DNA from: Elusimicrobia bacterium GWA2_51_34
GTDB lineage: Bacteria > Elusimicrobiota > Elusimicrobia > Elusimicrobiales > UBA9959
Direction of reading: 5' to 3'
Assembly (NCBI GenBank): GCA_001799565.1
Contig: MGTS01000034.1
Location: forward strand, 1 to 53,940
DNA length: 53,940 nucleotides
Made by a program: the position numbers and the translations under genes. This document shows, one piece after another, positions 27,309 to 51,048 of the stretch. Each line of letters starts with the position of its first letter. The first letter of the stretch is position 1. The notes below the pieces were generated by a model, which had not been told where the DNA came from, searched no databases, and saw only the letters and a program-made list of their open reading frames with translations.

Positions 27309-27320
27309 TTTTTTTGTTAC

Positions 27321-28394
27321 TCATGCTTCTTTGGTTATTGAGGTTAAATTTCCTAAAAAGACGATGGGGTCCTTAAACACGTTATCTTTCAGCAATTGAG
27401 CGAGTTCCGGATATCTTGGATGGGCGCTCAGGTGGACAGCGCGCCGCAGGAATTCCGTCTCGGAAAAGATCCAGTTGTGAATGCTGCTGAAATAAACGCA
27501 AGTGGCGCCAAACTGCCGGCCAAGGGATACAAAGGCGGGCATCTCCCTGAAATTGTTTTCCTGGACCACCATGCTTAGTATTAAACGCTCCAAGCGCCGG
27601 CTTTTGCGCAATTCCCCCAGAAACGAAAGATTTTGCAAAAGTGTTTCAAAGCTCCCGCCTCTCCGATTGACATGATAAGTCTCCGGACTGGCCGCGTCAA
27701 TGGAAATTTCCACCTCCCTTATCAACTCCCGGACATCAGATGGGATAGTGTTCCACATTTCAGGCGTCAAAAGCTGGCCATTGGTATGCAGTCGGATCAG
27801 CTTTAATTCGGGCATATCCGCTGTTCTCATGGAACGCAGCCATTCCCGTGTAAAAGGACTGCCGAGGGGGTCCCCGGACCCCTCAATATACAGTTCCTCT
27901 ACATCCCGCAATTCCTGTATTTTGCGCTGTATCTCCAATATCTCCCTTTTGTTATCAGTATCCACGAACATCCTGGTCCGGCATGAAGGGCAGGAGAGAT
28001 TGCAGGAACGATCAAAACAACAATTGATCTGCCTGGGCCCGTAGGGAAGTGACAGCATATGGTTTTTTATCACCGCGGAAATGCGCGGATCCGTCACATC
28101 CCCGATCCTCTTGACGTGCATTGAAATGGTTTGCAGGAAAGGGCATGACGCGCGAATACAGTATTTAAATGACCCGTCAAAAACCGATTTCCTTATTTTT
28201 TGCGCCTCGTCGCTGTTCCAAACCTGTTGAATTGACCTGTTAGTAATATTGCCTATTGCCACAGGCAGCCGGAGCGTGCAGCAGATATGCACCACCCCGC
28301 CGGAATGTATTTCAATGTTCTCAAAAGGCGCGGCGCAGAACAACCGGTTCTCCCGCGCGGAATCAACTCCGCTGAAATTATGTCCTGTCACCAT
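27321..28394 (-). CDS. Radical SAM protein with N-terminal SPASM-like cysteine region
   Basis: In this 357-residue protein a cysteine-rich region precedes the radical SAM core. Residues 20-85 (Cys20, Cys38-39, Cys79, Cys84; PFENIEIHSGGVVHICC and GNITNRSIQQVW) look like the auxiliary-cluster SPASM domain normally found at the C-terminus. The core motif CNLSCPSC has cysteines at 131, 135 and 138. IEGSGDPLGSP replaces the usual GGEP, and SIDAASPETYHVNRRGG is typical. The C-terminus has no further cysteine cluster. The substrate is unknown. It overlaps the upstream radical SAM gene by seven bases (ATGGTGA), so the two are probably made together. Confidence 0.78.
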   Translation of the reverse strand: MVTGHNFSGVDSARENRLFCAAPFENIEIHSGGVVHICCTLRLPVAIGNITNRSIQQVWNSDEAQKIRKSVFDGSFKYCIRASCPFLQTISMHVKRIGDVTDPRISAVIKNHMLSLPYGPRQINCCFDRSCNLSCPSCRTRMFVDTDNKREILEIQRKIQELRDVEELYIEGSGDPLGSPFTREWLRSMRTADMPELKLIRLHTNGQLLTPEMWNTIPSDVRELIREVEISIDAASPETYHVNRRGGSFETLLQNLSFLGELRKSRRLERLILSMVVQENNFREMPAFVSLGRQFGATCVYFSSIHNWIFSETEFLRRAVHLSAHPRYPELAQLLKDNVFKDPIVFLGNLTSITKEA

Positions 28395-29605
28395 AGCGGG
28401 TCACACAATCCGGCCTGGAGCCGATAGTGTCTCATCGCGCATATTTTGCAGCCAAGGCTGCCGTCATTGGCCGCCGCAAGCTGCCTGAAGCGGCGCATCA
28501 CATCGCCATTCCAAAGATCTAAAATAGCCTCCTTGTGAACATTCCCGCCGAACGCCGCCCCGCACTGGCAATAGGGTCCGACCCTGCCTTCCGGGTCCGA
28601 AAACAGACTCCCCCATGGATACGGGCAGGTTAAATCGGGTTCATTTGACGGCTGCGCGGAAATATCGTTGCCGCGCTTGTCGGCTGGCGGCGCGACCGGC
28701 GCCTGCTGGATGATCCTGCCCAAATCCGGCAGGCCGACCTGTATATTCTTCTCCGCCGCTTCGCGCCGTATTCGGGGTATGGCCGTATCAAGGTACCATT
28801 TCACCAGTTCCGGATCGGTCCCGGGATTTTGTTCCTGGTATTCGCTATCCGGCGGAAACGGGTTCAGGGAGTTTACCTGGACCATTTTAATGCCGAAGCG
28901 GTGCGCGAAGCCTACCAGATGGTCAAGATCCCTGATGTTGCATTTCATAAGCACGAAATTTAAAAAAAGACGCGGTCTGTCGGAGATAGGATACGCCGCG
29001 AAATATTTTTGAAGACGCGAGAGTACCGCGACGAGGGCGTCAAACCGTGCCCCTCTTCTGACATGCTCATAAGTTTCCGCCGTAAAGCCATCCACTGAAA
29101 TGCACACGCAGGTCCTGTTTTTAGCCAGCTTTTCCGCCCATCTTTCGTCAATAAACAGCCCGTTGGTTATGATGTTATGGTGCAGGCGGGGATATCGCGC
29201 GGCCTCATCGAACAGCGGTTCAAAATAAGGAGATAAAGAGGCTTCTCCCCCGATCCAGTTTATCATTTCAAGGCAGGGGATAAGCGCGCTTATTTCCCGG
29301 CGGGTCCGCTCGGTTATTTCATGCTTTCCCTGTGTGCGCTGCAGGCACATGATACAGGAAAGGTTGCATTTATCCGTAAGAGCGATTTCAAGTTTCAGAG
29401 GTTTTGACTCCAGAACGATCGTCTTCCGGAGAAGTTCAATCTTGTTCGTTATTTTGTTGATCAAAAAAACATCTTCGCAGTCCAGTAAATGATTCCGGTA
29501 ATTCTCCAGAACGCTGATTGCCTGTCCGCGGTCTCCCCGTTTGTAATAAAAGTTGGCGAGTTCGGTTTCCGCTTTATACCTTTCAGGTGTCACAATCACT
29601 TCCAT
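28388..29605 (-). CDS. Radical SAM/SPASM protein with short N-terminal helical repeat
   Basis: The 405-residue protein opens with a TPR-like helical pair (residues 10-60, YKAETELANFYYKRGDRGQAI). The radical SAM motif CNLSCIMC has cysteines at 80, 84 and 87, followed by a NWIGGEASLSPYFE segment (GGE motif) and CVCISVDGFTAETYEHVRRG. The C-terminal SPASM region is CPYPWGSLFSDPEGRVGPYCQCG then LWNGDVMRRFRQL and LGCKIC. Such enzymes modify peptides or proteins or act in cofactor synthesis. The substrate is unknown. It lies second-to-last in a run of four radical SAM genes and overlaps the next. Confidence 0.82.
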   Translation of the reverse strand: MEVIVTPERYKAETELANFYYKRGDRGQAISVLENYRNHLLDCEDVFLINKITNKIELLRKTIVLESKPLKLEIALTDKCNLSCIMCLQRTQGKHEITERTRREISALIPCLEMINWIGGEASLSPYFEPLFDEAARYPRLHHNIITNGLFIDERWAEKLAKNRTCVCISVDGFTAETYEHVRRGARFDALVAVLSRLQKYFAAYPISDRPRLFLNFVLMKCNIRDLDHLVGFAHRFGIKMVQVNSLNPFPPDSEYQEQNPGTDPELVKWYLDTAIPRIRREAAEKNIQVGLPDLGRIIQQAPVAPPADKRGNDISAQPSNEPDLTCPYPWGSLFSDPEGRVGPYCQCGAAFGGNVHKEAILDLWNGDVMRRFRQLAAANDGSLGCKICAMRHYRLQAGLCDPLW

Positions 29606-29651
29606 TGCACACGTCTCCCTGACCGCCCTGGAAAATTAAACGACAGTAGTA

Positions 29652-30509
29652 CTACGCCGGTATATACTCGCCGCATTTACAATCGTCCACAGGACATGCA
29701 ATAGGGCGTTCGGACAGCTGTACCGGCGTATTATGCACATCCCCGATTTCAACCCCGCACGTACCGCACCGGTAAATCCTGCCGCCGGCGCTGATAGAGG
29801 CATATTTTCCGCCGGCCCAGCAAAGCCGCCCTTTGGAACTTTCCGCCTTTAAACTGAAAGCGAGCCGTTGCGGAACAAGACAGTCTTCCAATATGAAAGC
29901 TTTGTCTTCCGGAGAATATGAGTCCGGATAGGCGCGGCCATCATATTTGCCCCAGTAACTCGCGATAAAAAACCAGCCGCATCCCGCTTCTTTGAATATT
30001 TTCCGGTAAAGCCTGATCTTGTCGTAATTCCACTGGAGCGGATGCGGATAAGCTAGATAATTAATACCGACCGCGAAATTACTCTTCCGGAGTTTTTTAA
30101 CGGTCGCCAGGGTTTTATCAAAACTGGCCAGATACGCGTAAAAACTGATCGCAATCGTGATCTTTTCAGGATTCACATCACGGATAAAATCATCGCTTAT
30201 GAGCGAGCCGTTAGTACTGATCATTATGCGATGAATATTTGAAATATTTTTAATAATTTCGGTGAATCCGGGGTAAAAAAATGGTTCCCCGCCGACAATA
30301 GTTACCCGTATTTCGCCGTAATGGTCGTACAAGTGCTGCCAGAAATCTTTCCATCGCTCCGGCGGCAGATAGATCACATCTTTTTTGGCTGCTTCCCAAC
30401 TGCCGTCAAACCAGCAATGCGGGCAATGATAGTTACACAGGCGATGTATATCCCAGGTCATGCTGACTTTATTTTTTAAAATATTTTCTTGCGGCTGGCG
30501 ATCAAGCAT
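29652..30509 (-). CDS. Radical SAM protein, CWF-type
   Basis: The start at 30509 overlaps the upstream stop as TAATG, a classic coupled start; the longer frame would lie inside the upstream gene. The 285-residue product has WDIHRLCNYHCPHCWFDGSWE with cysteines at 25, 29 and 32, then TIVGGEPFFYPGF and ISTNGSLIS. The C-terminal cysteine cluster (RCGTCG, then CPVDDCKCGEY) is SPASM-like. The CNYxCPxCWFxGxWE pattern is shared with the next gene upstream, so the two are paralogues. The substrate is unknown. The pairing suggests a two-enzyme complex or consecutive steps. Confidence 0.82.
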   Translation of the reverse strand: MLDRQPQENILKNKVSMTWDIHRLCNYHCPHCWFDGSWEAAKKDVIYLPPERWKDFWQHLYDHYGEIRVTIVGGEPFFYPGFTEIIKNISNIHRIMISTNGSLISDDFIRDVNPEKITIAISFYAYLASFDKTLATVKKLRKSNFAVGINYLAYPHPLQWNYDKIRLYRKIFKEAGCGWFFIASYWGKYDGRAYPDSYSPEDKAFILEDCLVPQRLAFSLKAESSKGRLCWAGGKYASISAGGRIYRCGTCGVEIGDVHNTPVQLSERPIACPVDDCKCGEYIPA

Positions 30510-31990
30510 TATTGCCTTTTCACGGGAGCGCTGAGACTGCCGCCGGGGCCAAGCGGACCGCCTTGAATATAAAGCGCCTCGTTGCTGCATTCGCAGGTGG
30601 AAAACTGGCATGGCTGCGCCTCATCACACATACAGAAATCGCCGCTTAAGAAATTCCCCACATAGCCGCCCTGTGAACATCTTTGCATATCCCCGTTGAA
30701 CTGCAGCCTGCCGTATAAGCGCCCTGAGTTGCATAACCTGCCCAGCGTACTTTTGAGATCCAGTTGATAGTCAGTCATCGTCCTCTGCTTTTTACCGTCA
30801 AGCGTGGAAAAAGCGCTCGTGGCGGCAAAAATTACGTCCGGCGGATAATAACGCAAATATTCACCATCGATAAACCATGCGAACATCCGCCTGGCTGCCG
30901 CGGTATATGCGACGGGATAATAGCGTCCTCTCCAGTAGCCCCTGAAAGGCTGAACCGTCAGATGTATTCCGCGCGAAAAAAAAGAATCATTCCAATCCAC
31001 CAGTCTTTTAAGATACGGCGGGTAGGCGACAATGGTGGCGGTGGCATGAAAGCCGGCCTTTCTCAGACGCAATACTTTTTCGGCAAAAGCATCCGCGGAT
31101 GGGGCGAATTTTGGATGAAAACTGCACGAAAAACCGACTTTGGCCGGGTCCACACGGCCCGCTATTTCCGAAGGATCCCAGGCAAAATTGGTGGACACGG
31201 AAAGAGTGTTCCGTTCAGCCAGCATGGCAAGTATATCCGCAAAGCCCGGATAGGTGAACGGCTCCCCGCCTGCTATCTCTATGTGCGCGGGTCCGTGACG
31301 CTCATTAAAACGGGCCCAATGAGAGCCCCATTCCTTCGGGCTCAAAATAACGGCTTTCCCGAGATACGTTTCCCACCCGCCGTGGAACCAGCAGTAAGGG
31401 CAGTCATAATTGCATGACAGATGGATGTTCCATGAAAGCCTGGGGCGGCCCTCGGCGCCTGCCGCCAGGGGTGCAGGAGGATTGTTTACGGGTTCAAACC
31501 TGCGTCGCGGCCTAAAACTTTTAACAGCAATGGAAAGAGCGGCGTCCGAACGAGCATCCCTGAAAAACCACAGGGGCCGCACTAAACGCGTCCATGAAAC
31601 GCGTATGGCGGGAACAGCTGTCTCCGCCGCTTTTTTTATAGCCCGTCCGGCCCGTAATGTCTCTCCATAAAGCGCATAAAACCCGTCATGGCCATAACCG
31701 GCGAGCCGTATAGCCGGAGCGCGAAGCGCATAATACCCTTTATGGCCATAACCGGCGAGCCGTATAGCCGGAGCGCGAAGCGCATAATAGCCGTCATGGC
31801 CATAACCGGCGAGCCGTATGGCCTGAGCGCGAAGCGCATAATACCCGTCTTTTAGTCCGAACCCTAGATAGCGCAGGATATTCCAGAACCGCGAAAATAA
31901 ATCACGGATTGACTGTATTTCGCGCAGCCTGGCCGTAAGATAAGCCGGATTGACGAGAAAACGAAGGCGGAAATGATTCTCAGGTTCCAC
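30509..31990 (-). CDS. Radical SAM protein with N-terminal 18-residue tandem repeats
   Basis: It starts with GTG at 31990 behind AAGGGG. The 493-residue protein has an N-terminal extension of about 185 residues before the radical SAM core (CNYDCPYCWFHGGWE, cysteines 193, 197, 200; IEIAGGEPFTYPGF). Residues 49-66, 67-84 and 85-102 are near-identical copies of GYYALRAPAIRLAGYGHD, and a fourth decayed copy follows. The C-terminus is cysteine rich (CMCDEAQPCQFSTCEC) and SPASM-like. It is paralogous to the gene at 29652. The repeats could be a substrate-like tail, a docking region or a simple DNA expansion. It opens the four-gene radical SAM run. Confidence 0.8.
   Translation of the reverse strand: MEPENHFRLRFLVNPAYLTARLREIQSIRDLFSRFWNILRYLGFGLKDGYYALRAQAIRLAGYGHDGYYALRAPAIRLAGYGHKGYYALRAPAIRLAGYGHDGFYALYGETLRAGRAIKKAAETAVPAIRVSWTRLVRPLWFFRDARSDAALSIAVKSFRPRRRFEPVNNPPAPLAAGAEGRPRLSWNIHLSCNYDCPYCWFHGGWETYLGKAVILSPKEWGSHWARFNERHGPAHIEIAGGEPFTYPGFADILAMLAERNTLSVSTNFAWDPSEIAGRVDPAKVGFSCSFHPKFAPSADAFAEKVLRLRKAGFHATATIVAYPPYLKRLVDWNDSFFSRGIHLTVQPFRGYWRGRYYPVAYTAAARRMFAWFIDGEYLRYYPPDVIFAATSAFSTLDGKKQRTMTDYQLDLKSTLGRLCNSGRLYGRLQFNGDMQRCSQGGYVGNFLSGDFCMCDEAQPCQFSTCECSNEALYIQGGPLGPGGSLSAPVKRQ
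31690..31851. repeat. Three tandem 54-base repeats inside a radical SAM gene
   Basis: Copies begin about 31690, 31744 and 31798, 54 bases apart and differing at only a few bases. They encode the 18-residue repeat of the protein. Such near-identity suggests recent expansion and possible length variation. Confidence 0.9.
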
Positions 31991-32062
31991 TATAACCCCT
32001 TAAACAGGGCCGAATCGGTTCAATATGGCAATATTTTACCATATCGCATCTAAGGGAGCTCC

Positions 32063-33172
32063 TTACGTAAACACTTCCAGATAAGTATACAGCCCGTGCC
32101 TGCGGGCTTCTTTCAGTGCGGTAAAGTGAAGTTTTTCGGCTTTGGCCGTGTTGCCAAGCAGGTAATTAACCTGCGCCATGGAAAGCTTAGTCAGAATAAT
32201 TCCGCGCGGTTCAATCCACCGGGGGTGCCGTCCTAAAGGCCTTTGGCCTACAGAACGGCCAAAACCGGAAGAGAATAATTTTTCCGCCCGCTTGAACGCG
32301 CCCTCGGCTTTAGCCAGTTCGCCCCGCTTCTTATAAACCTCGCCGATGCCCCACTCCACAAACCCCAGATCCGGGCCGTCCTTAATAGCCGAATAAAGTT
32401 TATGCGCCCTCTTGTAGCCCTTAAGTGCCTCATCAAGGCGCCCAAGCTGCCGAAGGACATTAGACATCCCGCATTCGGCGTAAGCCCTCGCAAAAATATC
32501 AGAGGAACCGGAAAACATCGCGCGGGCTTCCCTGTACGGTTTAAGCGCGCTTTCAATATGCCCCGCCACCCGCTTCACCCCGCCCAGGCCAAAAAGGGCG
32601 TAGCCGCGCGCGGCTTTGTCTCCCGCCTTAGCCGCAAAAGCGGCGGAGCCCTCAAAAGCTTTTATGGACAATTTATACCGCCCCTGAAGCCGCCACAGGC
32701 CGCCGAGCGACCAAAGAACAAACGAAACGGCTTCCCAGTCGCCTCTCCGGCGATATAAAACATGCAGGCGCTTAAGCGCCGGTTCCGCTCTGGAAAAATT
32801 CCCGGCCAGGCGGTGCGCGAGGGCAAGCTCAAGTTCAGCTTCGGGAATAAAAAACCCGCTTGAGCGCGCAAGGATGAGGGCTGAGCCGGCGGCCTTAAGC
32901 GCGGCTGATGTAAGGCCCAGCGCGCGGCTGGCCGCCGCCTTTTTGATCAGTATTTCAAGGCGCAGCTCCCGGCCACAGCTTTTCAATTTAAGCCCGCGGT
33001 CATAGCACGCAAGAGCATTATTAAATTCCCCCGCCTGCCGCCAGGCCTCGCCCCGCAGGAAGAGCGCTTCCGCGCAGGTTTCATTTTTCTTAAGGCCGGC
33101 TAATATTTTAAGCGCCGCCGCAGGTTTTTCAGCGTCCAGGAATTTCCTTGCTTTTTTTATCTGTTCCAGCAT
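32063..33172 (-). CDS. Tetratricopeptide repeat protein
   Basis: The ATG at 33172 (MLEQIKKARKFLDAEK) follows a GGAG site and gives 369 residues; an upstream in-frame ATG has no ribosome site. The chain is helical TPR repeats throughout, for example AEALFLRGEAWRQAGEFNNALACYDRGL, ARAYAECGMSNVLRQLGRLDEALKGYKRAHKLY and GFVEWGIGEVYKKRGELAKAEGAFKRAEKLF. There is no signal peptide, so it is probably a cytoplasmic scaffold. Between two repeats near the C-terminus an in-frame palindromic element encodes about 15 odd residues (FGRSVGQRPLGRHPRW). It lies at the upstream end of the radical SAM run, but a shared operon is not proven (72-base gap). Confidence 0.8.
   Translation of the reverse strand: MLEQIKKARKFLDAEKPAAALKILAGLKKNETCAEALFLRGEAWRQAGEFNNALACYDRGLKLKSCGRELRLEILIKKAAASRALGLTSAALKAAGSALILARSSGFFIPEAELELALAHRLAGNFSRAEPALKRLHVLYRRRGDWEAVSFVLWSLGGLWRLQGRYKLSIKAFEGSAAFAAKAGDKAARGYALFGLGGVKRVAGHIESALKPYREARAMFSGSSDIFARAYAECGMSNVLRQLGRLDEALKGYKRAHKLYSAIKDGPDLGFVEWGIGEVYKKRGELAKAEGAFKRAEKLFSSGFGRSVGQRPLGRHPRWIEPRGIILTKLSMAQVNYLLGNTAKAEKLHFTALKEARRHGLYTYLEVFT
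32227..32259. repeat. Palindromic element inside the TPR gene
   Basis: GCCGTCCTAAAGGCC and GGCCTACAGAACGGC form an imperfect inverted repeat in frame with the TPR protein. It resembles the lptA elements in its CCTAAGG-like centre. Confidence 0.6.
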
Positions 33173-33311
33173 TATACAATCTCCGTACGGGGCGCCAACA
33201 ATGAAACAGTACAAAAAGTTTAATGCCGGAGGCAAATATAAGAATTCCACGGAGCAGGCAGGGCGAAACAGTGGATTACATCAGCGCTGTTTTTTGCGGA
33301 AAAGCAGCTGC

Positions 33312-33350
33312 CTAAGGCGGAAGGCTGGCGACATATGCCTTCCTTACGGA
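33312..33350. repeat. Intergenic inverted repeat upstream of the TPR gene
   Basis: CCTAAGGCGGAAGGC pairs with GCCTTCCTTACGG in the 203-base gap between the epimerase-like gene and the TPR gene. It may act as a terminator for the minus-strand operon to its right, though no clear T run follows. Confidence 0.45.
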
Positions 33351-33375
33351 CTGCGCTTAATAAGGAGAAAAAATG

Positions 33376-34347
33376 TCAGTTGATCATGTTTTCTAAGCAG
33401 TTTTTTGAGGTTGAAAGGCTGTTTTTTATTCTTTCAAGCGTCTTTCCTTCCACTTCAAGCATAATACTGCCGTTGTATCCTGTCCTTTCAAGACCAGAAA
33501 CAACACCATAATAGTCAATGCTTCCCTGCATGGGAGGAAGGTGCTGGTCATAAAGCCCGTCGTTATCGCTTGCATGTATGTCTATAATAGGGGTTTTAAA
33601 AGCACAGATATAATCGTAAATTGATTTCTCTTTTGTCAGTCCTCTTTGAATGTTCAGGTTGGCATGGCCGATATCAAGAAGCACGCCGAATTCACCGTTA
33701 AGCTCTTTTTGTATGTCTTCAAAATTTTCAGGAGTGCAGGTGCCTTCACTAAAGTTCTCAATGCCCACCGGGATTTCTTTGCATGCAGATGCCGCGAACT
33801 TGATGATATCAATAGTCGCGGCCCTGTAAAAAGTAAGCTTGCCGTTGAATATGCCGTGAACCAGTTTTAAATCTGAAATAGGTTTGATATTCCTTGATAA
33901 GTAACCGTATAAACCTCTTCTTATTTTTGAAACCGTATAGTAGAGAGAATCGCAGACTCCAGTCTTAAGGTATCCTGAACTCTTAACAAAAGGCCTGGTA
34001 TAAAGAGGGTCAAAAGTTATCATTTTAAGGTTCGTTTTGCCGGCCCACGAGAAGAAGGGAAGGACAAGTTCTTTAGCGGTTTCATTAAACGGCTTTCTAA
34101 TGCTGCAGGAATATGCACTGATATAATTCAAATCTATGTGTATATTCAGACAGAGAGAGTTCTCATTTAATATCCTGACAAGCCTGTTCTTGTATTCACC
34201 CGTCATAGCCGATGGGAAATAGGCCAGATCATCCACATTTATTTCAACGCTTTTAAAACCGAGCGCTGCTATGTTTTCAATCGCTTTATCTAAAGGCATA
34301 AACCTGGTAAATGCAGATGTGCAGCAGCCTATTCTTATATTCTTCAA
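33376..34347 (-). CDS. TIM-barrel sugar phosphate isomerase/epimerase-like protein
   Basis: A TTG at 34347 behind a perfect AGGAGG (34352-34357) is the likely start; the longer frame would overlap the upstream gene by about 100 bases. The 323-residue product begins KNIRIGCCTSAFTRF and has ALGFKSVEINVDDL. Further on are VGIENFSEG, GVLLDIGHANLN and PIIDIHASDNDGLYDQHLPPMQGSIDY, the usual metal ligands (Glu, Asp, His) of the AP-endonuclease-2/xylose isomerase-like TIM barrel, and MLEVEG at the end. The family isomerises or epimerises sugars or inositols. The substrate is unknown. It lies last in the A+T-rich operon that carries the furan genes. Confidence 0.7.
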   Translation of the reverse strand: MKNIRIGCCTSAFTRFMPLDKAIENIAALGFKSVEINVDDLAYFPSAMTGEYKNRLVRILNENSLCLNIHIDLNYISAYSCSIRKPFNETAKELVLPFFSWAGKTNLKMITFDPLYTRPFVKSSGYLKTGVCDSLYYTVSKIRRGLYGYLSRNIKPISDLKLVHGIFNGKLTFYRAATIDIIKFAASACKEIPVGIENFSEGTCTPENFEDIQKELNGEFGVLLDIGHANLNIQRGLTKEKSIYDYICAFKTPIIDIHASDNDGLYDQHLPPMQGSIDYYGVVSGLERTGYNGSIMLEVEGKTLERIKNSLSTSKNCLENMIN

Positions 34348-34393
34348 ATCGCCTCCTGTCAAACAACCGGTACAATGTATGATTAGCCCAGTT

Positions 34394-35881
34394 TTATTTT
34401 CTTTTAAAAAGCCAGGCTTCTGCCTGATGATACTTCCGATAGACAACCAGGTCCATTCCACTTTTAAGGCTTGCAAGAAACCGGTAAAACTTTTCATCCG
34501 AATCCATTAACAAGGGATCCACGCATGTTACCCAGAGGTATTGAGGCTTGGTATTTGCCAAAACTTTCATGCCCTTAACCCCATAAGCTACTTCTTTTCT
34601 TTTGCCGAGTTTTTCTTTGTCAAAATACCACCTCAGAAGGTCAGAAGGGTGCCCTGTCATGCCTCTTTCTATAAAAAGCGTAGAGTTTGCATTTTCATAT
34701 CTTTCGGCAATGAATTTTGACAATTCCCGCCATTGGGTTTTTGCGACTGTGCGGTAATAATCCCTGATAAAAACCAGGTTGTATAGAGGAAATATTATTA
34801 ACAAGCCGGAAATAACTAGCTGGCCTCTTGTTTTTTTTATAACTTTTATTAAAGCCCCGGCAACCAGGAGATAGCCTGCAGGAAGCGATATAATAAGATA
34901 TCTTGGTAGAAATACGGGAAATGAGAGTATTGATTTCAGGTATATCAGAAGCGGCGGTATTACAAACCAGGATAGAACAAGTATATCTCTTCGGGATTCA
35001 AAACCTTCTTTCGCTTTTGCGGGTTGCACAACATTATACAGCCCATAAGCTATAAGAAAAAGGTATAAAGGTGCGGAAATCTTCGGGACATCAAACAGAA
35101 AATAGAAGTATGAATTCCAATCGCTCATTGTGGGTTTTTGTATCCACTCAATAGCTATGAGGTTATGTTTTATCTGGTAAAAATATGCCGGTATCCAGGG
35201 GGAATAAACAACCGCTATAACGCCGTAAATTATAAAAAGGGAACGCAGGGCTTTTGTATTCCTTGCAAACAGCAGGATACCCATAACACATTGAAAAAGG
35301 ACAAGATAAAGTCCGAAATAGTGCGTATAAGATACAATTAAAGCCGATAATATATAGCACAGGGCAGAAGACAGCCTGGGTTTTTTTTCTTCATAAAAAT
35401 CTTTTAGTACAGACAGCCAGAAGAAAGCAGACAGTATAGAGAAAAGAAGCACAAGAGAATACGGCCTTGCTTCCTGGCTGTAGTTTATGCATGAGCCTGA
35501 AACAGCCATAAGCCCGGCAGCAATCAGCCCCTCTTTATATGAGTAGAACCGTTTTCCTGTAAAATAAATTGCGAGTATGGAAAAAAAACCGAAAACCGCT
35601 GATGGAAAACGCAGTAAACCTTCAGAATTGCCGATATATTTCTGAATAAAATACGGTATAAAATAATATAACGGGGGGCTGGTGTCAAGATTTTTTATTG
35701 TAGAAACCACTGACGAGAAACCTTCCACAACCGCCATTCTCGAACTGCTTGTCACAAGAACACTGAAAAGTTCGTCAAACCACAAAGACTCGCGTGATAA
35801 GCCGTAAAAGCGCAGGAAACCGCCGGCAGCAATAAGGATGGCAAGGATTATAGTGGTTCTTTTTTTATTTATAGAAAACAT
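34394..35881 (-). CDS. GT39-like membrane glycosyltransferase
   Basis: The 495-residue protein has about 11 hydrophobic helices. Its first loop holds SLWFDELFSVLV, the Asp-Glu pair of the PMT/ArnT (GT39 / PMT_2) family. The later NLDTSPPLYYFIPYFIQKYIG and NYSQEARPYSLVLLFS are further family hallmarks. A soluble domain follows from about residue 390. It probably transfers a sugar from a polyprenyl-phosphate donor at the outer face of the inner membrane. It lies 46 bases after the HisA-like gene on the same strand and probably belongs to the same transcript; whether it shares the furan pathway is unclear. Confidence 0.78.
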   Translation of the reverse strand: MFSINKKRTTIILAILIAAGGFLRFYGLSRESLWFDELFSVLVTSSSRMAVVEGFSSVVSTIKNLDTSPPLYYFIPYFIQKYIGNSEGLLRFPSAVFGFFSILAIYFTGKRFYSYKEGLIAAGLMAVSGSCINYSQEARPYSLVLLFSILSAFFWLSVLKDFYEEKKPRLSSALCYILSALIVSYTHYFGLYLVLFQCVMGILLFARNTKALRSLFIIYGVIAVVYSPWIPAYFYQIKHNLIAIEWIQKPTMSDWNSYFYFLFDVPKISAPLYLFLIAYGLYNVVQPAKAKEGFESRRDILVLSWFVIPPLLIYLKSILSFPVFLPRYLIISLPAGYLLVAGALIKVIKKTRGQLVISGLLIIFPLYNLVFIRDYYRTVAKTQWRELSKFIAERYENANSTLFIERGMTGHPSDLLRWYFDKEKLGKRKEVAYGVKGMKVLANTKPQYLWVTCVDPLLMDSDEKFYRFLASLKSGMDLVVYRKYHQAEAWLFKRK

Positions 35882-35927
35882 TGACTGGCCAGTTACAAGC
35901 GTTATTTAAGTTTGCCGTCGGAACATA

Positions 35928-36659
35928 CTATCCTGCTTTTTCTAAGTCTTCAACTGTGATATTGCCGCGGTGAAGAGAGGTGGCTATTAAAACCCCCGAT
36001 ATGCCGCTGCCGGACAGTCTTATTATGTCGTCTATGGAAGTTACGCCGCCGCCTGTTATAACATTTACTTTAATTTCGGATAATTTTCTCATTAAACCCG
36101 GGACAAAACCCGGAACTCCTGTCAAAGTGCCTACACCGCTTAGATTAAGCAGAATAAAATCCCGTGCTCCGCTTTTAAAAAGGCTTGTTATTGTTTCAAA
36201 AGGTTCACTGCTCAGGCCCGGGCATGCGGTTATTGTCCTGCCTTCTTTTATATCTATGCTGATAATAACCTTTTTCTGCCCAGCCGCTTTAATGAACCAG
36301 GACAGATTGTCTGTAGATCCCAGTGTTTCAGTGCCCAGTATCAGGTCGTCGCAACACTCAAAAATGCTTTTATCGAATTTATCAATGTTCCTTATTCCGG
36401 GGTCAAGCATTATCCTTAACCCCGATTTTTTTTTAATTTCCCTTATTATACCGTAGTTATTGCCGTTGTTTAATATAGAGTCAAGATCCGCGATATAAAG
36501 CCTTTTAAACCCCATCCTATTCTTGAACACCGCGGCAAAATCCAAAGGCGAATGCGAAGGCGCAAGGACAGAAACCAGGGGCTTGTATTTTTCCCTCTCG
36601 CCTTTGATCGCCCCTACGGCAATGCCGCCAAGAATATCAAGGACCGGTATTATTTCCAT
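35928..36659 (-). CDS. HisA/HisF-related protein of the tetrahydromethanopterin/methanofuran gene context
   Basis: This is a 243-residue (beta/alpha)8 protein. It begins EIIPVLDILGGIAVGAIKGERE and continues LYIADLDSILNNGNN, LDPGIRN, LGTETLG and ISIDIKEGRT, and has VITGGGVTSIDDI near the end. The pattern is that of the HisA-like family seen in methanogens and C1-oxidising bacteria (I recall it as TIGR00734) rather than histidine-pathway HisA, because the N-terminus reads VAVGAIKGER instead of the classic VRLxxGD. Its reaction is unknown. It overlaps the UbiA-like gene by ten bases. True HisA seems unlikely since no his gene is near. Confidence 0.72.
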   Translation of the reverse strand: MEIIPVLDILGGIAVGAIKGEREKYKPLVSVLAPSHSPLDFAAVFKNRMGFKRLYIADLDSILNNGNNYGIIREIKKKSGLRIMLDPGIRNIDKFDKSIFECCDDLILGTETLGSTDNLSWFIKAAGQKKVIISIDIKEGRTITACPGLSSEPFETITSLFKSGARDFILLNLSGVGTLTGVPGFVPGLMRKLSEIKVNVITGGGVTSIDDIIRLSGSGISGVLIATSLHRGNITVEDLEKAG

Positions 36660-37495
36660 AGTTTGCCCATCAAAAGAAAGAATGCAAAGAACAGGCCTTC
36701 TTGAATTGCAAAAAACCTGTCTTTCCTGTTTCTAAGGTCTCTAAAAAGCTCTTGAGTCTTTTCTGATTTTAAAAGAACCACGATCCTTGCACTGCTGAAG
36801 AGCAAAACTCCTATTAAAAAAAAGTTCCCTCTGGGATCCATCGAGATTCCGTATAATGCAAAAGCTATCGCAATAAGAAGGCAGGCGGCAGAAGCCTTTG
36901 CAGTAAAAGGTATGCCTTTAATTTGGGGAAGCGATTGAATTCTGTCTTTACCGAGGTGTTCAACCTGGTGGAACAACTCAAAGAAAGCCAGGTAAAAAAA
37001 GAAAATTACCGAGAGAATGACGGCAATGGGCGTTACTCTGCTTTCCAAAAACCAGAAAGGATACAGGAACAGTATCGTGCCAAGGCATACTGAATTTATT
37101 ATAAGAGACAAAATGTAGTTGTCTTTGTACCTGAATCCAGGCGCCTGGTATAAATGGAAAAGTATCTGGTAGAGAATTAAAAGAAAATAACTGGCATTGG
37201 AAAAAGGTATTGTAAGAAGCATCAAAATAAGCGGAAGAGCGCACAGCCTCCATACCGCCTTGTCGCTGAAACCCTTATTCATCAGTTCTTTTGCATAGTT
37301 TTCCTCACCCCATACTTTTGTGTCATAGTAATTGTTCATAGAGAATGAATACATTTGCGCAAGAAGTATCTGCAAGATAGCAAGAGCTGATTTAAGAATA
37401 GGCGGGAACTGGCTAACCGATAGAATGGCAATAAAACCAAGCCCCAGGTTTCTGATACAAAAATCCAGCCTGTAAAACTTGTAGATGCTTATCAT
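36650..37495 (-). CDS. UbiA-superfamily membrane prenyltransferase-like protein
   Basis: This is a 281-residue membrane protein with eight to nine helices. The first Asp-rich motif, usually NxxxDxxxD, reads NNYYDTKVW, so the second Asp is missing. The second region, usually DxxxD, reads HQVEHLGKDRIQSLPQIKG with a typical GxDRxxSLPxxxG ending. Both positions place it in the UbiA family, yet the altered metal ligands suggest a changed substrate. It overlaps mfnE by four bases (ATGA) and the HisA-like gene by ten, so all three are translated together. An unusual activated group, such as the furan made by the neighbours, is one possible substrate. Confidence 0.68.
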   Translation of the reverse strand: MISIYKFYRLDFCIRNLGLGFIAILSVSQFPPILKSALAILQILLAQMYSFSMNNYYDTKVWGEENYAKELMNKGFSDKAVWRLCALPLILMLLTIPFSNASYFLLILYQILFHLYQAPGFRYKDNYILSLIINSVCLGTILFLYPFWFLESRVTPIAVILSVIFFFYLAFFELFHQVEHLGKDRIQSLPQIKGIPFTAKASAACLLIAIAFALYGISMDPRGNFFLIGVLLFSSARIVVLLKSEKTQELFRDLRNRKDRFFAIQEGLFFAFFLLMGKLWK

Positions 37496-38157
37496 TCTTT
37501 TGTTATCAGTGTGCCGGCGCCTGATACGCCATCAAACGCTTTTTTTATTCTGCCCGGGTATTTTACAGAAACCACCCAGACCGGGATACCATTTTTTTGA
37601 ATTAGTTTCGGCAGGTATTTATCGGTACATGTGTTGTTTTTTAATTTTCCAAGCTTTAACGCCGTTATCTTCTTCACGGCTCTTCCACCGGGTGAGACGC
37701 ATATCCCGTTTATATTCTTAACAAGTATCGTTCTAGTCGCTTTTAATTTTTCAGCTGCATAAAGAGCTATAGAATCTGAAGTTAAGTCCCAGCTTTTAGG
37801 AAGAGACTTTTCTTTTTCAATCAGTTTTGCGGCGAGTAGAATCGGTATTTGTTTTTTTGCGGCTATCTTTTGCGCTTTTTGCGCAGTATCCACCAGCCGC
37901 ATTCCCGGGCACAGATCTTTAATAATGCAAGAATTAATATTCATGGCCTTCAACGCCATAAAGTGGGCGGCCGTATTCGAAAACCCGTGTTTTTTCTGCA
38001 GATTTCTTATGGCATCAGCAAGAACACCTCCGCCTGCTATGACTGTAAATCTGTATTTGTTCTTAAGAGATGTCAGAATCCGGCATAAAGGCAGCAGTTC
38101 TCTGCCATTGTTTATTATACTGCCGCCGATTTTAATTACTGCATCCATGTCTGCCAT
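37492..38157 (-). CDS. mfnE: [5-(aminomethyl)furan-3-yl]methyl phosphate kinase-like amino acid kinase
   Basis: The 221-residue protein is a small amino-acid-kinase-fold enzyme. VIKIGGSII at the start is the phosphate-binding lysine motif, VIAGGGVLADAIR follows, and SWDLTSDSIALYAAEKL near residue 140 is characteristic of MfnE-type kinases in methanogens and C1 bacteria. ILVKNINGI and a TCTDKYLPKL region follow. MfnE phosphorylates 5-(aminomethyl)-3-furanmethanol phosphate to the diphosphate in methanofuran synthesis. It lies 23 bases after mfnB and overlaps the UbiA-like gene. Other small kinases (isopentenyl phosphate kinase, UMP kinase) are alternatives, but the mfnB neighbour makes MfnE the best call. 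Confidence 0.8.
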   Translation of the reverse strand: MADMDAVIKIGGSIINNGRELLPLCRILTSLKNKYRFTVIAGGGVLADAIRNLQKKHGFSNTAAHFMALKAMNINSCIIKDLCPGMRLVDTAQKAQKIAAKKQIPILLAAKLIEKEKSLPKSWDLTSDSIALYAAEKLKATRTILVKNINGICVSPGGRAVKKITALKLGKLKNNTCTDKYLPKLIQKNGIPVWVVSVKYPGRIKKAFDGVSGAGTLITKE

Positions 38158-38180
38158 TGTTATTTGTATCGCGAAGCCTG

Positions 38181-38894
38181 TTACTTTGAATTGTGCACTG
38201 CTTTATACAACCTGTTTACCAGTTCAGGATCCAGAGATGCATTTCTTGATTTATTTATACATAAAGACCCTCTCATCCCTATTATGTCCGGATTTACTAC
38301 TGCCACAGAGTCAAGGTTATTTTCATCGAGGCTTCCTGATAGTACTGTGAGAATCCCCAGCTCGCTGCAAACCTGCTTAAATTGCTTCAAGTCTTTTAAA
38401 GGGATGTGGTCAAATGGGGTTTTCCTGTCTTTTACAACTGTGTCTATCATGCAGGCAAAAGCCCCATATTTTTTCGCTACTTCAGGAAGCAAAAGAGGGC
38501 TTACGCATCCGATAGAAGAATAATCCGCATATCCGACCAGGACCAGGTTTGCCGTTATATTAAACAAGTTTATGGTTTCAACTATCTTTTGCGCTACCTT
38601 TTCCGCGTCTTTTTCGTTCTTTGCTCCCAGAAAACCTATTTTTATTAAAGCGGGTTTAAACATTGAAACGCCAAGAAGAGCCAATGACATTGTATTGGGG
38701 TTATCGTGAACATCCCCTATAGATATGCTCAGAGGGAGGCTTCTGTCCATCACGCTTACCACCTCTTTAATAACTTTAGGCGAGCCGGCACCGATAGTCC
38801 CTTCAAGAGGGTCTTTTATATCCAGTATATCGCAGTTTACGGAGTTTAAGCAGGCTGCTTCTGTTTTGTTTATTACGGAAACAAGAAGTTTCAT
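38181..38894 (-). CDS. mfnB: (5-formylfuran-3-yl)methyl phosphate synthase
   Basis: This 237-residue TIM-barrel protein (DUF556 family) joins two glyceraldehyde 3-phosphates into 4-(hydroxymethyl)-2-furancarboxaldehyde phosphate, the furan precursor of methanofuran. LLVSVINKTEA at the start and DILDIKDPLEGTIGA give Asp25 and Lys27; ALIKIGFLGA gives Lys85; CMIDTVVKDRKTPFDH gives Asp151 and Lys155. As I recall these equal the catalytic residues and even the numbering of the Methanocaldococcus jannaschii enzyme. GSLDENN and GMRGSLC close the barrel. It is the first gene of the minus-strand operon with mfnE, the UbiA-like and HisA-like genes. MfnA, MfnC, MfnD and MfnF are not seen here. Confidence 0.9.
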   Translation of the reverse strand: MKLLVSVINKTEAACLNSVNCDILDIKDPLEGTIGAGSPKVIKEVVSVMDRSLPLSISIGDVHDNPNTMSLALLGVSMFKPALIKIGFLGAKNEKDAEKVAQKIVETINLFNITANLVLVGYADYSSIGCVSPLLLPEVAKKYGAFACMIDTVVKDRKTPFDHIPLKDLKQFKQVCSELGILTVLSGSLDENNLDSVAVVNPDIIGMRGSLCINKSRNASLDPELVNRLYKAVHNSK

Positions 38895-39118
38895 AATGAG
38901 ATGTTAACAAGTGTTAGCGGTTTTGTCAATATTTTGCAGATTCCATCAACAATTCCGAAAAAGACATCGGAATTGCTGCGTAGGGGGCGATCTGTGATGG
39001 CCGCAAGTTGCATCCGATTGATTCATCAAAAAGGAACGCAAGGCTGATTGTAAAAACAGGCTTGATTTGCTTTTTTGGGAAATATATACCGGTTTGCGCA
39101 ACTGGGAGATGGTTTTTG

Positions 39119-40105
39119 TCAGTTGAAAAGCCTCATAACGCCGTTATAGAACCCATGAAGCTCCATTATAAAAGACGAAAAACCACGGCTGGATGCAGAA
39201 GCTTTTTTCAGCGGGTTTGCAAGTTTGCTTTCAACGCACTTCCTGCAAATGTTTTTGTCATACGCAAAACAGGACAGTCTTGCCCATATATCAGACGGCT
39301 CAAATTTTAGAATATTACCTATTGAATACGGATAGAAAAGGCAAGGCCATACTTCCCCGTCAGGTTTTATTAAAGGCACTGTCCGCCTTTCGCACAGCGA
39401 AACCTTTATGCCGGAATCCGATAAAGAACCATGGCCAAGCAGATTGAGCTTTGAAAACACCGGCCTTATTATACCCCAGAAAAGGGCAAACTGCATCACA
39501 TTAAGTTGAAAGCTCTCCTGCTGTTTAATGCCGCCAAGAGACATAAAAACATCAAGATGAACGTCTTTTGCGGAATATTTTTTCGCAAACCCTTCTACCC
39601 TGAATAGCTCAAGAAAATTCTTTCTTGTCAAAAGAAAAGCAAGGTCAGTGTTTATTCCTTCCGCTTTGGCCAGAGCAAGAGCATTGATTATTTTTCTAAA
39701 ATGTCCGGGCTTTGTAAAAGCGTCGTGTGTTTTGCTTGTAGTGCCGTAAATTGTAACATTAAGTTTATCAAGCCCTGCATGTTTAAGCGCTTTTGCCAAC
39801 TCGGGAGTGAGCAAGGATGCGTTTGTATCTATACCTGCATAAACACCTCTTGATTTTGCATGTTTTACAATCTCGATTATATCTTTTCTTTCAAGTGGTT
39901 CTCCTCCAAGAAACAGTATTTTAATGTGTGGGATAGAAGCAAGCCTGTCAATAACATCCTTGACATGCTGAAGATCCATATCATTGATCTTTCTTGTGTT
40001 TTCGGATATATAACAGTGGCTGCAGCCGAGCGAGCATTGTGCGGTTATTTCGAACCTTACAAGCTGGGGAGTTGAAAAAGAGTTTATTTCTTGTTTGTTT
40101 TGCAC
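39119..40105 (-). CDS. Radical SAM/SPASM protein
   Basis: It starts with GTG at 40105 and is 328 residues. VRFEITAQCSLGCSHCYISE gives cysteines 24, 28 and 31 for the SAM cluster; LFLGGEPLERKDI is the GGE motif; and ATIDTNASLL-like text (GIDTNASLLTPELAK) and LNVTIYGTTSKTHDAFT follow. The C-terminal part has CERRTVPLIKPDGEVWPCLFYPYSIGNI and DKNICRKCVESKL, a SPASM-type auxiliary cluster. It resembles peptide- or cofactor-maturing enzymes of the PqqE/MftC type, but no small peptide gene was seen next to it. It lies 224 bases upstream of mfnB in the same direction and shares its A+T-rich composition. Confidence 0.8.
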   Translation of the reverse strand: MQNKQEINSFSTPQLVRFEITAQCSLGCSHCYISENTRKINDMDLQHVKDVIDRLASIPHIKILFLGGEPLERKDIIEIVKHAKSRGVYAGIDTNASLLTPELAKALKHAGLDKLNVTIYGTTSKTHDAFTKPGHFRKIINALALAKAEGINTDLAFLLTRKNFLELFRVEGFAKKYSAKDVHLDVFMSLGGIKQQESFQLNVMQFALFWGIIRPVFSKLNLLGHGSLSDSGIKVSLCERRTVPLIKPDGEVWPCLFYPYSIGNILKFEPSDIWARLSCFAYDKNICRKCVESKLANPLKKASASSRGFSSFIMELHGFYNGVMRLFN

Positions 40106-40221
40106 AGTTTTTTAAAGTGGAATACTGAATTGTCAAATAAAAAAACAGAGTTGAACAAGTCCTGACACCGGCCTATCTGCCGGCCTACGTATCCCTTTTA
40201 GTGCTTGCGGTTTTTTATCTA

Positions 40222-40422
40222 TCACTGTTTTTCCAGCTTATTTTCAAAATCACTAAGCATTGCCTTTCTTGTTTCGTCATCAACAAAAGCAGATTTTATA
40301 GCATATATATTTGTTTCAATTATATCATTTATCGTCATCCCCATTTCACGGATGCAATGCAAATATTCCTGGCTCATATTTGTGTCAAAAACGGTTCTAT
40401 CGTCCGTATTTATTGTTACCGG
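40222..40422 (-). pseudogene. add: Adenosine deaminase C-terminal remnant
   Basis: Read on the minus strand, 67 codons from 40422 to the TGA at 40222 give VTINTDDRTVFDTNMSQEYL, then EMGMTINDIIETNIYAIKSAF and a helical end. This matches the last part of adenosine deaminase (the VTINTDDP metal-site motif and the following helices). Nothing of the first 250 or so residues is present: the frame meets a stop at 40423-40425, inside a GGTAACC-type heptamer repeat. The repeat therefore marks the break point. The gene is a decayed fragment and cannot make an active enzyme. Confidence 0.85.
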
Positions 40423-40440
40423 TCACTGATTACCGGTTAC
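40414..40440. repeat. Heptamer repeat at the add break point
   Basis: On the minus strand this reads GTAACCG GTAATCA GTGACCG GTAAC. It joins the add remnant to the end of the endonuclease III-like gene. Words match the element at the end of pyrG. Confidence 0.75.
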
Positions 40441-41105
40441 TTCTTGTTGTTACACATTTTCCCTAAGGGGCAGCCGTTACAGAGCGGTTTCCTTTTTTTA
40501 CAAAACTCCTTTCCCAGTTTTACCAGCAGAGCGTGGTATTCATTATACGTGCCGGCATTTGGCGGCAGATTCGCCTCAAAAAGCGCCTGCCAATCCTCGT
40601 AAGAAAGTTCACCAGCGAAACCCAGCCTTTGGCTTATCCGCTTTGTATAGGAATCTATCACAAAACCAGCCTTACCGGCGGCGTATAGCGCTATTGAATC
40701 CGCTGTTTCGGGGCCTATGCCCTTAAGAGAAAGAAGTTCGCCGCGCAGCGTCTGGCGCGGCGCGGCGGAAAACCATTTTTTTAGTCCTTCAGGATGTTTT
40801 CGCAGGATATAACAGCAGAAGCCCTTAAGCCGGCCGGCCTTCTGGCGGTAATAACCACTGGACCGTACCAGGCGGCCCAGCTTTCCCGCGGGACAGACGT
40901 TTATTTTTTCAGGAGAAGTGGTGTCAGCCGCGTGCAGCGCGGCAAGGGCCTTTTCCACATTTTTCCAGGAGGTGTTCTGAGTAAGTATAGCCCCCGCGCA
41001 GATCTCGAAAATTTCATTTTCAGAAATCGGGCCGTAAAAACCCGGTCTGTAAAGCGGTTTGTTCCAGCCTACGGGCCACCAGCCCTGCGGGCCGAAGGCA
41101 GCCAT
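40437..41105 (-). CDS. Endonuclease III-like DNA glycosylase
   Basis: The frame is open to 41243, but it would overlap the upstream gene and run through a heptamer repeat, so the ATG at 41105 is used; the true start may lie slightly upstream. The product has about 222 residues. The helix-hairpin-helix is LLSLKGIGPETADSIALYAAGK followed by the catalytic Asp region VIDSYTKRI. The 4Fe-4S motif reads CKKRKPLCNGCPLGKMC. AAFGPQGWWPV and AGAILTQNTSWKNVEKAL are typical of the Nth-related group that includes 3-methyladenine glycosylases. It removes damaged bases; the substrate range is uncertain. The stop lies beside the repeat next to the add remnant. Confidence 0.88.
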   Translation of the reverse strand: MAAFGPQGWWPVGWNKPLYRPGFYGPISENEIFEICAGAILTQNTSWKNVEKALAALHAADTTSPEKINVCPAGKLGRLVRSSGYYRQKAGRLKGFCCYILRKHPEGLKKWFSAAPRQTLRGELLSLKGIGPETADSIALYAAGKAGFVIDSYTKRISQRLGFAGELSYEDWQALFEANLPPNAGTYNEYHALLVKLGKEFCKKRKPLCNGCPLGKMCNNKK

Positions 41106-41124
41106 CAAAAGAGAGTAAGCTTTT

Positions 41125-41149
41125 CCTACCCCGAACCCTCTACCCTTAC
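41125..41149. repeat. Heptamer repeat, GGGTAGA family
   Basis: On the minus strand: GTAAGGG TAGAGGG TTCGGGG TAGG. It covers the leader or first codons of the glycosylase gene. Confidence 0.65.
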
Positions 41150-41161
41150 ATTGCAGTAGGA

Positions 41162-41566
41162 TTATCCCTGCAGAAGTTTTTTTATTTCCCGCAGCAGGTC
41201 TTCCAGATTGTAAGGTTTTTTCATGAAGTTTTTTGCGCCGCATATTTCAGCCCTTTCAACGCTTTCAGGGGAATCCATGGTGGAAATGATAAGCACCGGG
41301 ATATGCCTTACGGTATTATCGCGCTTGAGTGCGGCGCAGACCTCGTAGCCGTTCAGTTTGGGAAGCAGCAGGTCTAGCAGGATCAGGTCTGGCTTTTCTC
41401 GGCGCGCAAGCGCGAGGCCCGTCACGCCGTCGTGGGCCAGAAAAGCAAGCCTGCCCTCGGCTTCAAGCACGGCCTTCAGCGCTTCGGAAGTGCTCTTGCT
41501 GTCTTCCACTATCAGAATTTTTTTCTTTTGTATTTCAGGTTCCGCCGCGGAAAATTTATCCGTCAT
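41162..41566 (-). CDS. CheY-like single-domain response regulator
   Basis: The ATG at 41566 follows GGAAAG and overlaps the flippase-like gene by 11 bases; a longer frame upstream lacks support. The 134-residue product is one receiver domain: KKILIVEDSKSTSEAL (acidic pair), DLILLDLLLPKLNGYEV (phospho-acceptor Asp), PVLIISTMDSPESVERAEICGAKNFMKKPY (Thr and Lys switch). There is no output domain, so it acts by protein contact or in a phosphorelay. No histidine kinase is next to it. Confidence 0.9.
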   Translation of the reverse strand: MTDKFSAAEPEIQKKKILIVEDSKSTSEALKAVLEAEGRLAFLAHDGVTGLALARREKPDLILLDLLLPKLNGYEVCAALKRDNTVRHIPVLIISTMDSPESVERAEICGAKNFMKKPYNLEDLLREIKKLLQG

Positions 41567-50292: not shown

Positions 50293-51048
50293 ATGAAAAA
50301 AGCCGGTTTTGCCAAACTATTAGCCCTCGCCCGCGTTGAATGGCGGCTGCGCCAGCAAAGCACCTTCCTTGGTTTCCTTTGGACCATGCTGAACCCGGCA
50401 TTGCTTTTTGCCGTTATGTACGCGGTTTTTGAGCATTCGTTCGGATCACGGCAAAGCGATTATGCCATGTTTCTGGTCATAGGCATAGTGGAATGGAATT
50501 TCTTCTCCTCGGCCACAAATTGCGCTCTTACAAGTCTGCAACGGCGGGCACCCATAATAAAAAATTATCCTGTAAGCCCTGAAACCGTAGTGCTGGCCTC
50601 GCTGCTGAGCGTCTACTTCTCCCACTTATTGGAGCTAGCCGCCCTTGGAACGCTTGTTCTGCTTTTCGGGGCCTCCCCTTCACTTTCGTGGCTCTGGCTG
50701 GCGCCGTTGGATATTCTTTACCTTTGTCTGGTTGCCGGGACAGGCATGCTTTTAGCCTGGTTGGGAGTGTTTTATTTTGATATTGAGCGCATATGGGCCA
50801 TAGCGCTGATGGCGGGTTTTTTTCTGACACCTATTTTCTACCCTCTTGACGTAGTCAATGAGGTCAAGCGCCGCCTGCTGGAGTTCAGTCCTCTCACCGC
50901 CGCGGTTGAAAGCCTTAGGCTTATTTTTTCCGGGGCGCCGCCTTCACACGAAGCGCTGTTGTGCCTGGCGTTTTGGGCTGTGCCGGCGCTTATTGCCGGC
51001 TTTACCGCGCTGCGCCTTGCCCGCGCTAAAATAGGAGACGCGCTATGA
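50293..51048 (+). CDS. ABC-2 type polysaccharide/teichoic-acid exporter permease
   Basis: The 251-residue membrane protein has six helices. WRLRQQSTFLGFLWTMLNPALLFAVMYAVFEHSF is the hallmark start of the Wzm/TagG/KpsM permease family, and FFLTPIFYPLDVV is the conserved late helix. It forms the channel that moves a completed glycan on a lipid carrier across the inner membrane, with the ATPase encoded next. The stop overlaps that gene (ATGA). The ligand is unknown; the GT2 and GT4 genes upstream probably build it. Confidence 0.88.
   Translation: MKKAGFAKLLALARVEWRLRQQSTFLGFLWTMLNPALLFAVMYAVFEHSFGSRQSDYAMFLVIGIVEWNFFSSATNCALTSLQRRAPIIKNYPVSPETVVLASLLSVYFSHLLELAALGTLVLLFGASPSLSWLWLAPLDILYLCLVAGTGMLLAWLGVFYFDIERIWAIALMAGFFLTPIFYPLDVVNEVKRRLLEFSPLTAAVESLRLIFSGAPPSHEALLCLAFWAVPALIAGFTALRLARAKIGDAL

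Follow-up and report, generated by a model that had tools for sequence, protein, structure and literature searches.

What does a bacterium make from furan when it carries genes of methanofuran synthesis? This question was raised by contig MGTS01000034.1 of Elusimicrobia bacterium GWA2_51_34, the whole stretch of which (53,940 nucleotides) is called the window below. A block of four genes on its minus strand, at positions 35928-38894, encodes MfnB, an MfnE-like kinase, a UbiA-family membrane protein and a HisA-like protein. A first-pass annotation of the window had left two options, that the host makes a methanofuran-like one-carbon (C1) carrier or that it uses the furan for something else, and the evidence presented here favours the second. 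We propose, tentatively and with a probability of about 45%, that the block is part of a horizontally acquired furan head-group cassette, in which furfuryl diphosphate would be passed to UbiA to form a furan-bearing membrane compound and no C1 carrier.

Gene identities in the mfnB block

The four genes are the following:

38181..38894, minus strand: mfnB, (5-formylfuran-3-yl)methyl phosphate synthase, 237 amino acids (PF04476, catalytic residues, fold model)
37492..38157, minus strand: mfnE-like gene, amino-acid-kinase-fold protein, 221 amino acids (NCBIfam MfnE as best family)
36650..37495, minus strand: UbiA-superfamily membrane transferase, 281 amino acids (PF01040)
35928..36659, minus strand: Orf17/hisAF_rel protein, a HisA-like TIM barrel, 243 amino acids (TIGR00734)

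The mfnE-like gene starts 24 bp downstream of mfnB. ubiA is flanked by mfnE, which it overlaps by 4 bases (37492-37495), and by the orf17-like gene, which it overlaps by 10 bases (36650-36659). The list of open reading frames (ORFs) agrees with the first-pass annotation on the four genes, their order and both overlaps; lpxK, kdsA and lptB, from which a diderm host had been deduced, are also real genes of the window. The identities given to the genes of the block held, but the description of the HisA-like and UbiA-like proteins as mere followers of mfnB and mfnE did not, and the extension of the operon on both sides, the insertion and the Orf17 family of the HisA-like protein had been overlooked.

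MfnB matched PF04476, named beforehand as the profile whose failure to match would refute the call, with 203 bits over residues 3-229 (cut-off 22.4). The residues on which mfnB had been recognised (Asp25, Lys27, Lys85, Asp151 and Lys155) are at the positions originally given and are invariant in 24 MfnB sequences from archaea and bacteria. An AlphaFold model (predicted local distance difference test score, pLDDT, of 93) was superposed on MJ1099/MfnB (4rc1, 4u9p), with a template-modelling (TM) score of ~0.94 at 34% identity; at the level of the fold, the structural check named beforehand was thus passed as well. Homology, invariant residues and fold together identify the protein as a genuine MfnB, predicted to make the furan phosphate from two molecules of glyceraldehyde-3-phosphate.

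Relatives of mfnB were recovered by a profile search of genome contigs, a single-sequence MfnB search having returned none, and the best 80 genome loci formed the comparison set; viral contigs contained no relative. The window protein is at most 41% identical to any of these 80 best genome matches, and tree branches are very long (2.5 for the window MfnB and 2.4 for the window MfnE). Identity and branch lengths of this kind would be expected if MfnB and the kinase had drifted to another substrate and made no furan. We regard such a drift as improbable, since the five catalytic residues and other invariant columns are kept, the modelled fold is identical to that of MJ1099 and two further methylofuran genes have been retained together with mfnB.

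The best family of the kinase is by far NCBIfam MfnE (NF040622; 127 bits, next family 42), which, with its position directly downstream of mfnB, bears out the earlier mfnE call. The curated cut-off of 300 is not reached, but it is too strict: with the same model, kinases encoded in genuine mfnF-bearing clusters also stay under it (182 bits in Bathyarchaeota, 123 in Hakubella and 104 in Syntrophobacteraceae). The window kinase is 34% identical to MfnE of Bathyarchaeota and Njordarchaeota clusters, and its nearest solved structure is 7qrh. It is predicted to convert the furan phosphate to a diphosphate.

The HisA-like protein scored 144 bits with TIGR00734 (hisAF_rel), compared with 103 bits for the best true-HisA model, TIGR00007, and this ranking rules out a HisA of histidine biosynthesis. 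The curated TIGR00734 cut-off of 180 was reached neither by the window protein nor by its relatives from genuine clusters (160, 139 and 114 bits); the next-best match in 341 genomes of the phylum had 84 bits. Homologues were present near mfnB in most archaeal loci of the 80-locus set. In Methylorubrum, the homologue Orf17 (PF00977, itself homologous to MJ_0703) is required for methylofuran and not for tetrahydromethanopterin (H4MPT), its role having been left open (PMC8141765). Judging from these family assignments, three of the four genes (mfnB, mfnE-like and orf17-like) are a furan cassette. As a separate observation, no HisA-type gene other than the orf17-like one was found at E 1e-10 in the window genome and its family, and this lineage may not make histidine.

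The fourth protein matched PF01040 with 41.7 bits (cut-off 34.2). Its low-confidence model (pLDDT 57) gave weak support to this assignment, the nine best PDB matches being all UbiA-fold enzymes. It thus resembles UbiA prenyltransferases (4tq3-4tq6, 4od4) and the membrane phosphoribosyltransferase 8j8k in its Pfam match and, weakly, in its fold, but the Asp-rich motifs of these enzymes are only partly kept, and its genomic partner is furan synthesis instead of quinone, haem or arabinan synthesis. By BLAST it is the only copy of its kind in the 341 genomes of the phylum; phmmer detected no relative in the PDB, and none was present in the neighbourhoods of the 80 mfnB loci. Two other UbiA genes of the window genome (contigs C3 and C21) are in unrelated loci, and the C3 copy is common to the sister species. 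The C21 gene (L127, 9371-11291), which by eye resembles phosphoribosyl-transferring UbiA, adjoins a radical SAM gene and was not found in the two sister genomes.

C1 enzymes of the genome and the inserted island

The window belongs to a genome of 2.63 Mb that is 97.8% complete. The full-genome profile search suggested by the first-pass annotation was run in part, for MfnD (tyramine-glutamate ligase, NF040722), MfnF (TIGR03123), FTR/FhcD (PF01913) and Mch (PF02289), to which beta-RFAP synthase (TIGR00144; H4MPT synthesis) was added; none of these five profiles matched in the genome, MfnA, MfnC, FhcABC, MtdB and Fae not being among the families searched for. Positive controls for each profile, Methanocaldococcus jannaschii and Methanosarcina acetivorans, were matched. 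The absence of MfnD alone means little, because several methylotrophs also lack it. The known C1 use is excluded because FTR and Mch are absent, and the five negative results contradict the proposal of a methanofuran-like C1 carrier.

The clustering of mfnB, an mfnE-like gene and an orf17/hisAF_rel-like gene is shared with the methanofuran pathway of methanogens (MfnA-F) and with the methylofuran pathway of Methylorubrum (Orf22/21/9, MyfA, MyfB, Orf17; PMC8141765). In Bathyarchaeota, Hakubella, Syntrophobacteraceae, Nitrososphaerales and others, mfnB, mfnE, mfnF, an mfnD-like ATP-grasp gene and hisAF_rel form a block, mfnF and mfnD being profile-confirmed in one locus (L024) and read from translated ORFs in the others. 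Unlike these systems, the window genome lacks MfnF, MfnD and the tested C1 enzymes FTR/FhcD and Mch, and in the window ubiA takes the place of the mfnF/mfnD pair between mfnE and orf17, in a cluster that adjoins membrane glycosyltransferase and radical SAM genes.

These adjoining genes are part of an island of seven ORFs, all on one strand, encoding a radical SAM protein, MfnB, MfnE, UbiA, the Orf17-like protein, a glycosyltransferase and a TIM-barrel isomerase-like protein. Besides the block itself, its features are:

about 33173..40450: inserted island, ~7.3 kb, ~40% G+C (flank synteny, G+C drop)
40222..40422, minus strand: adenosine deaminase remnant at the island edge, C-terminal 66 amino acids (PF00962, 44 bits, profile positions 269-327 of 330)
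39119..40105, minus strand: radical SAM/SPASM protein, first island gene, 328 amino acids (PF04055, 89 bits; PF13186, 24 bits)
34394..35881, minus strand: membrane glycosyltransferase (PMT_2/GT39-like), downstream of the block, 495 amino acids (PF13231, 35 bits)
33376..34497, minus strand: xylose-isomerase-like TIM-barrel protein, last island gene, for which the listed start is probably too far upstream (PF01261, 56 bits)

The island is horizontally acquired. Its neighbours are a TPR gene (32063-33250) on one side and an HhH-GPD DNA glycosylase gene (40437-41243) on the other, and these two adjoin each other in both other genomes of the genus (G021 and G022); alignment with these sister genomes ends at 33172 and restarts at 40450. 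G+C is ~40% from 33.4 to 40.1 kb and above 50% in the flanks, and the radical SAM gene has the strand and base composition of mfnB. No flanking repeats or integrase were found at the island edges. No donor lineage could be named: all three window proteins are on long branches, the nearest by identity being those of Bathyarchaeota and Hakubella. The sharp fall in G+C could also be produced by a foreign contig or a chimera, that is, by an artefact of assembly or binning. This is very improbable, given that the island lies within a single 53.9-kb contig whose flanks are syntenic with both sister genomes, with flank genes (LPG-synthase-TM, nadB and uvrA) 83-89% identical to theirs.

The adenosine deaminase remnant is the fossil of a neighbouring gene of the donor, cut off at the edge, and it suggests that donor DNA came in as a blunt piece. 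Such a transfer might have captured a partial methanofuran or methylofuran cassette, as mfnB, mfnE and hisAF_rel are genes of genuine methanofuran clusters; UbiA would then be a passenger, and the cassette would either be decaying or feed the synthesis of a furan-methanol derivative by unrecognised host enzymes that replace MfnF and MfnD. We consider this unlikely: every ORF of the island is intact, ubiA is inside the operon with overlaps on both sides, and with FTR/FhcD and Mch absent such a cofactor would have no user.

A region elsewhere in the window (22143-32000) contains a YdjC-GT2-methyltransferase fusion, four radical SAM genes and membrane genes without an assignment; it is probably a second insertion, because lptB lies ~1.5 kb beyond the TPR gene in the sister genome G022.

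mfnB clusters in the family and in Streptomyces

Of the 58 remaining genomes in the GTDB family, 10 carry mfnB, and none of these ten belongs to the window's genus. The ten loci (L012-L021) share a neighbourhood composed of uvrA, a block of glycosyltransferase, radical SAM and ABC exporter genes, a methyltransferase, mfnB, prenyl-diphosphate synthases and UbiA; UbiA and at least two prenyl-diphosphate synthases accompany mfnB in all ten, and an isopentenyl-phosphate-kinase-like enzyme does so in five. B12-type or other radical SAM genes also occur, and the loci that are long enough have a radical SAM gene, PqqD, an acyltransferase and an ATPase-like gene. In the window genome, the uvrA-glycosyltransferase-radical SAM-ABC block is found ~5 kb from the island, and glyQ is next to it, in place of mfnB. 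In L018 (6322-7905) and its homologues, mfnB is adjoined by a gene for an ABC ATPase with a fused amidohydrolase domain of the histone-deacetylase type (PF00005 + PF00850); the window homologue of the ATPase (51045-51761) is without the PF00850 domain.

Isopentenyl phosphate kinases have the segment GSFGH, the His of which is essential. The five kinases of the family loci have GSYGK or GSFGK at this segment. The synthase adjacent to mfnB has kept DDxxD-RRG, but the second DDxxD is replaced by GDELN in all 8 aligned copies, and the remaining two copies also show DDxxD-RRG and likewise lack a second DDxxD. The change in the second motif is shared by some paralogues that are not beside mfnB.

The family clusters resemble that of the window in combining MfnB, UbiA and radical SAM proteins and, in five of them, an amino-acid-kinase-fold, diphosphate-forming kinase. 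They differ from it by their prenyl-diphosphate synthases, PqqD and acyltransferase, by the lack of hisAF_rel and by a UbiA that is hardly alike. The window MfnB is 33% identical to the other MfnB proteins of the family and has different neighbours; a separate origin of the two was considered and dropped, as an approximately unbiased (AU) test does not reject a single clade (p 0.6). The family loci look like an undescribed furan-isoprenoid biosynthetic cluster, and a search of the open-access literature turned up no paper that describes MfnB together with UbiA or a use of furan by such a cassette.

Elsewhere in the phylum, a very divergent mfnB was found in a single genome of another family (G169; L103, 9580-10371; 132 bits), where it adjoins a gene for a 983-amino-acid protein; this MfnB-like protein probably has another function.

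Outside the phylum, two Streptomyces plasmid loci (L129 and L130) carry a cassette of MfnB, aldehyde dehydrogenase, alcohol dehydrogenase and methyltransferase, and a third (L131) has the cassette without the aldehyde dehydrogenase; L129 is 79-94% identical to L130 and L131. The MfnB homologue is 35-37% identical to that of the window; Streptomyces is not known for methanofuran C1 chemistry, and UbiA, MfnE and Orf17 queries had no match within 14 kb. This cassette would seem to lead to a furan alcohol or acid. With these plasmids, the window's phylum is not alone in having MfnB outside C1 metabolism.

A possible furan donor for UbiA

In the scheme that we propose, MfnB would make the furan phosphate from glyceraldehyde-3-phosphate, and the MfnE-like kinase, as expected from its family, would add a second phosphate, giving a furan-methyl diphosphate, chemically of the allyl/benzyl type. 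The transaminase step (MfnC) may be carried out by a host enzyme, or skipped so that the aldehyde is left, and the Orf17-like protein would serve some step needed for the furan half. UbiA would consume the diphosphate in place of MfnF, which joins it to glutamyl-tyramine, and would transfer the furfuryl group to a membrane-associated acceptor (an aromatic, an isoprenoid or a lipid). Two other proteins of the operon, the radical SAM protein and the membrane glycosyltransferase, might then modify the product.

UbiA is the only type of diphosphate-consuming enzyme in the island, and it is tied to mfnB and mfnE by the tight overlaps and by the single compact insertion. The best argument that it is not a passenger is its presence with MfnB in two very different clusters of one family.

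Several points weigh against this scheme. The window-type gene set was found in one genome only, with no second copy, and the island has no dedicated aminotransferase. The Asp motifs of UbiA are partly degenerate (NNYYDTKVW and QVEHLGKD; in the alignment with NxxxDxxxD and DxxxD, the Asn and two Asp are kept and the others changed), so that the substrate cannot be read from them, and the UbiA donor is normally a prenyl diphosphate. The UbiA proteins of the relatives are ~20% identical to that of the window, and the lack of hisAF_rel in their clusters argues for two cluster types instead of one system.

The main alternative is that furan is the acceptor: UbiA would prenylate the furan ring from MfnB with a chain supplied by the host, much as happens in quinone synthesis. 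The result would be a prenyl-furan, and the kinase would have a different function. UbiA enzymes normally prenylate aromatic acceptors, and in the relatives prenyl-diphosphate synthases with both Asp motifs (PPSb) stand beside UbiA in the mfnB clusters, which this alternative fits about as well as does the donor scheme. It is nevertheless rather unlikely for the window: the island has no prenyl synthase, the diphosphate-forming MfnE-like kinase is left without a purpose, and a polar phosphorylated furan would presumably be a poor acceptor for a membrane enzyme. Whichever the direction of UbiA, we infer a furan compound that is either bound to the membrane or synthesised there.

A broader form of the donor scheme is possible but doubtful. 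Furan-methyl diphosphate would serve as a non-isoprenoid "prenyl" donor for UbiA, or in the relatives for the altered prenyl synthase, leading to a new class of quinone-like compounds or membrane lipids with a furan head; Orf17 would be a missing enzyme of furan synthesis.

The orf17-like gene has been kept with mfnB and mfnE while MfnF, MfnD and the H4MPT synthesis gene are gone, which links Orf17 to the furan head and not to the side chain, and suggests that it acts in the furan half and not in the tyramine/polyglutamate half. As the mfnB clusters of the relatives lack hisAF_rel, Orf17 is not a constant requirement for MfnB to act; if it served close to the kinase step or the amination, this would agree with both these clusters and the window set. 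The window thus offers a natural dissection of the pathway, which bears on a protein whose deletion abolished methylofuran. mfnB alone is not a marker of methanofuran-linked C1 metabolism, as the furan half is present here without the tested signature genes. If UbiA or the altered prenyl synthase does take furfuryl diphosphate, these large enzyme families would gain a new class of donor.

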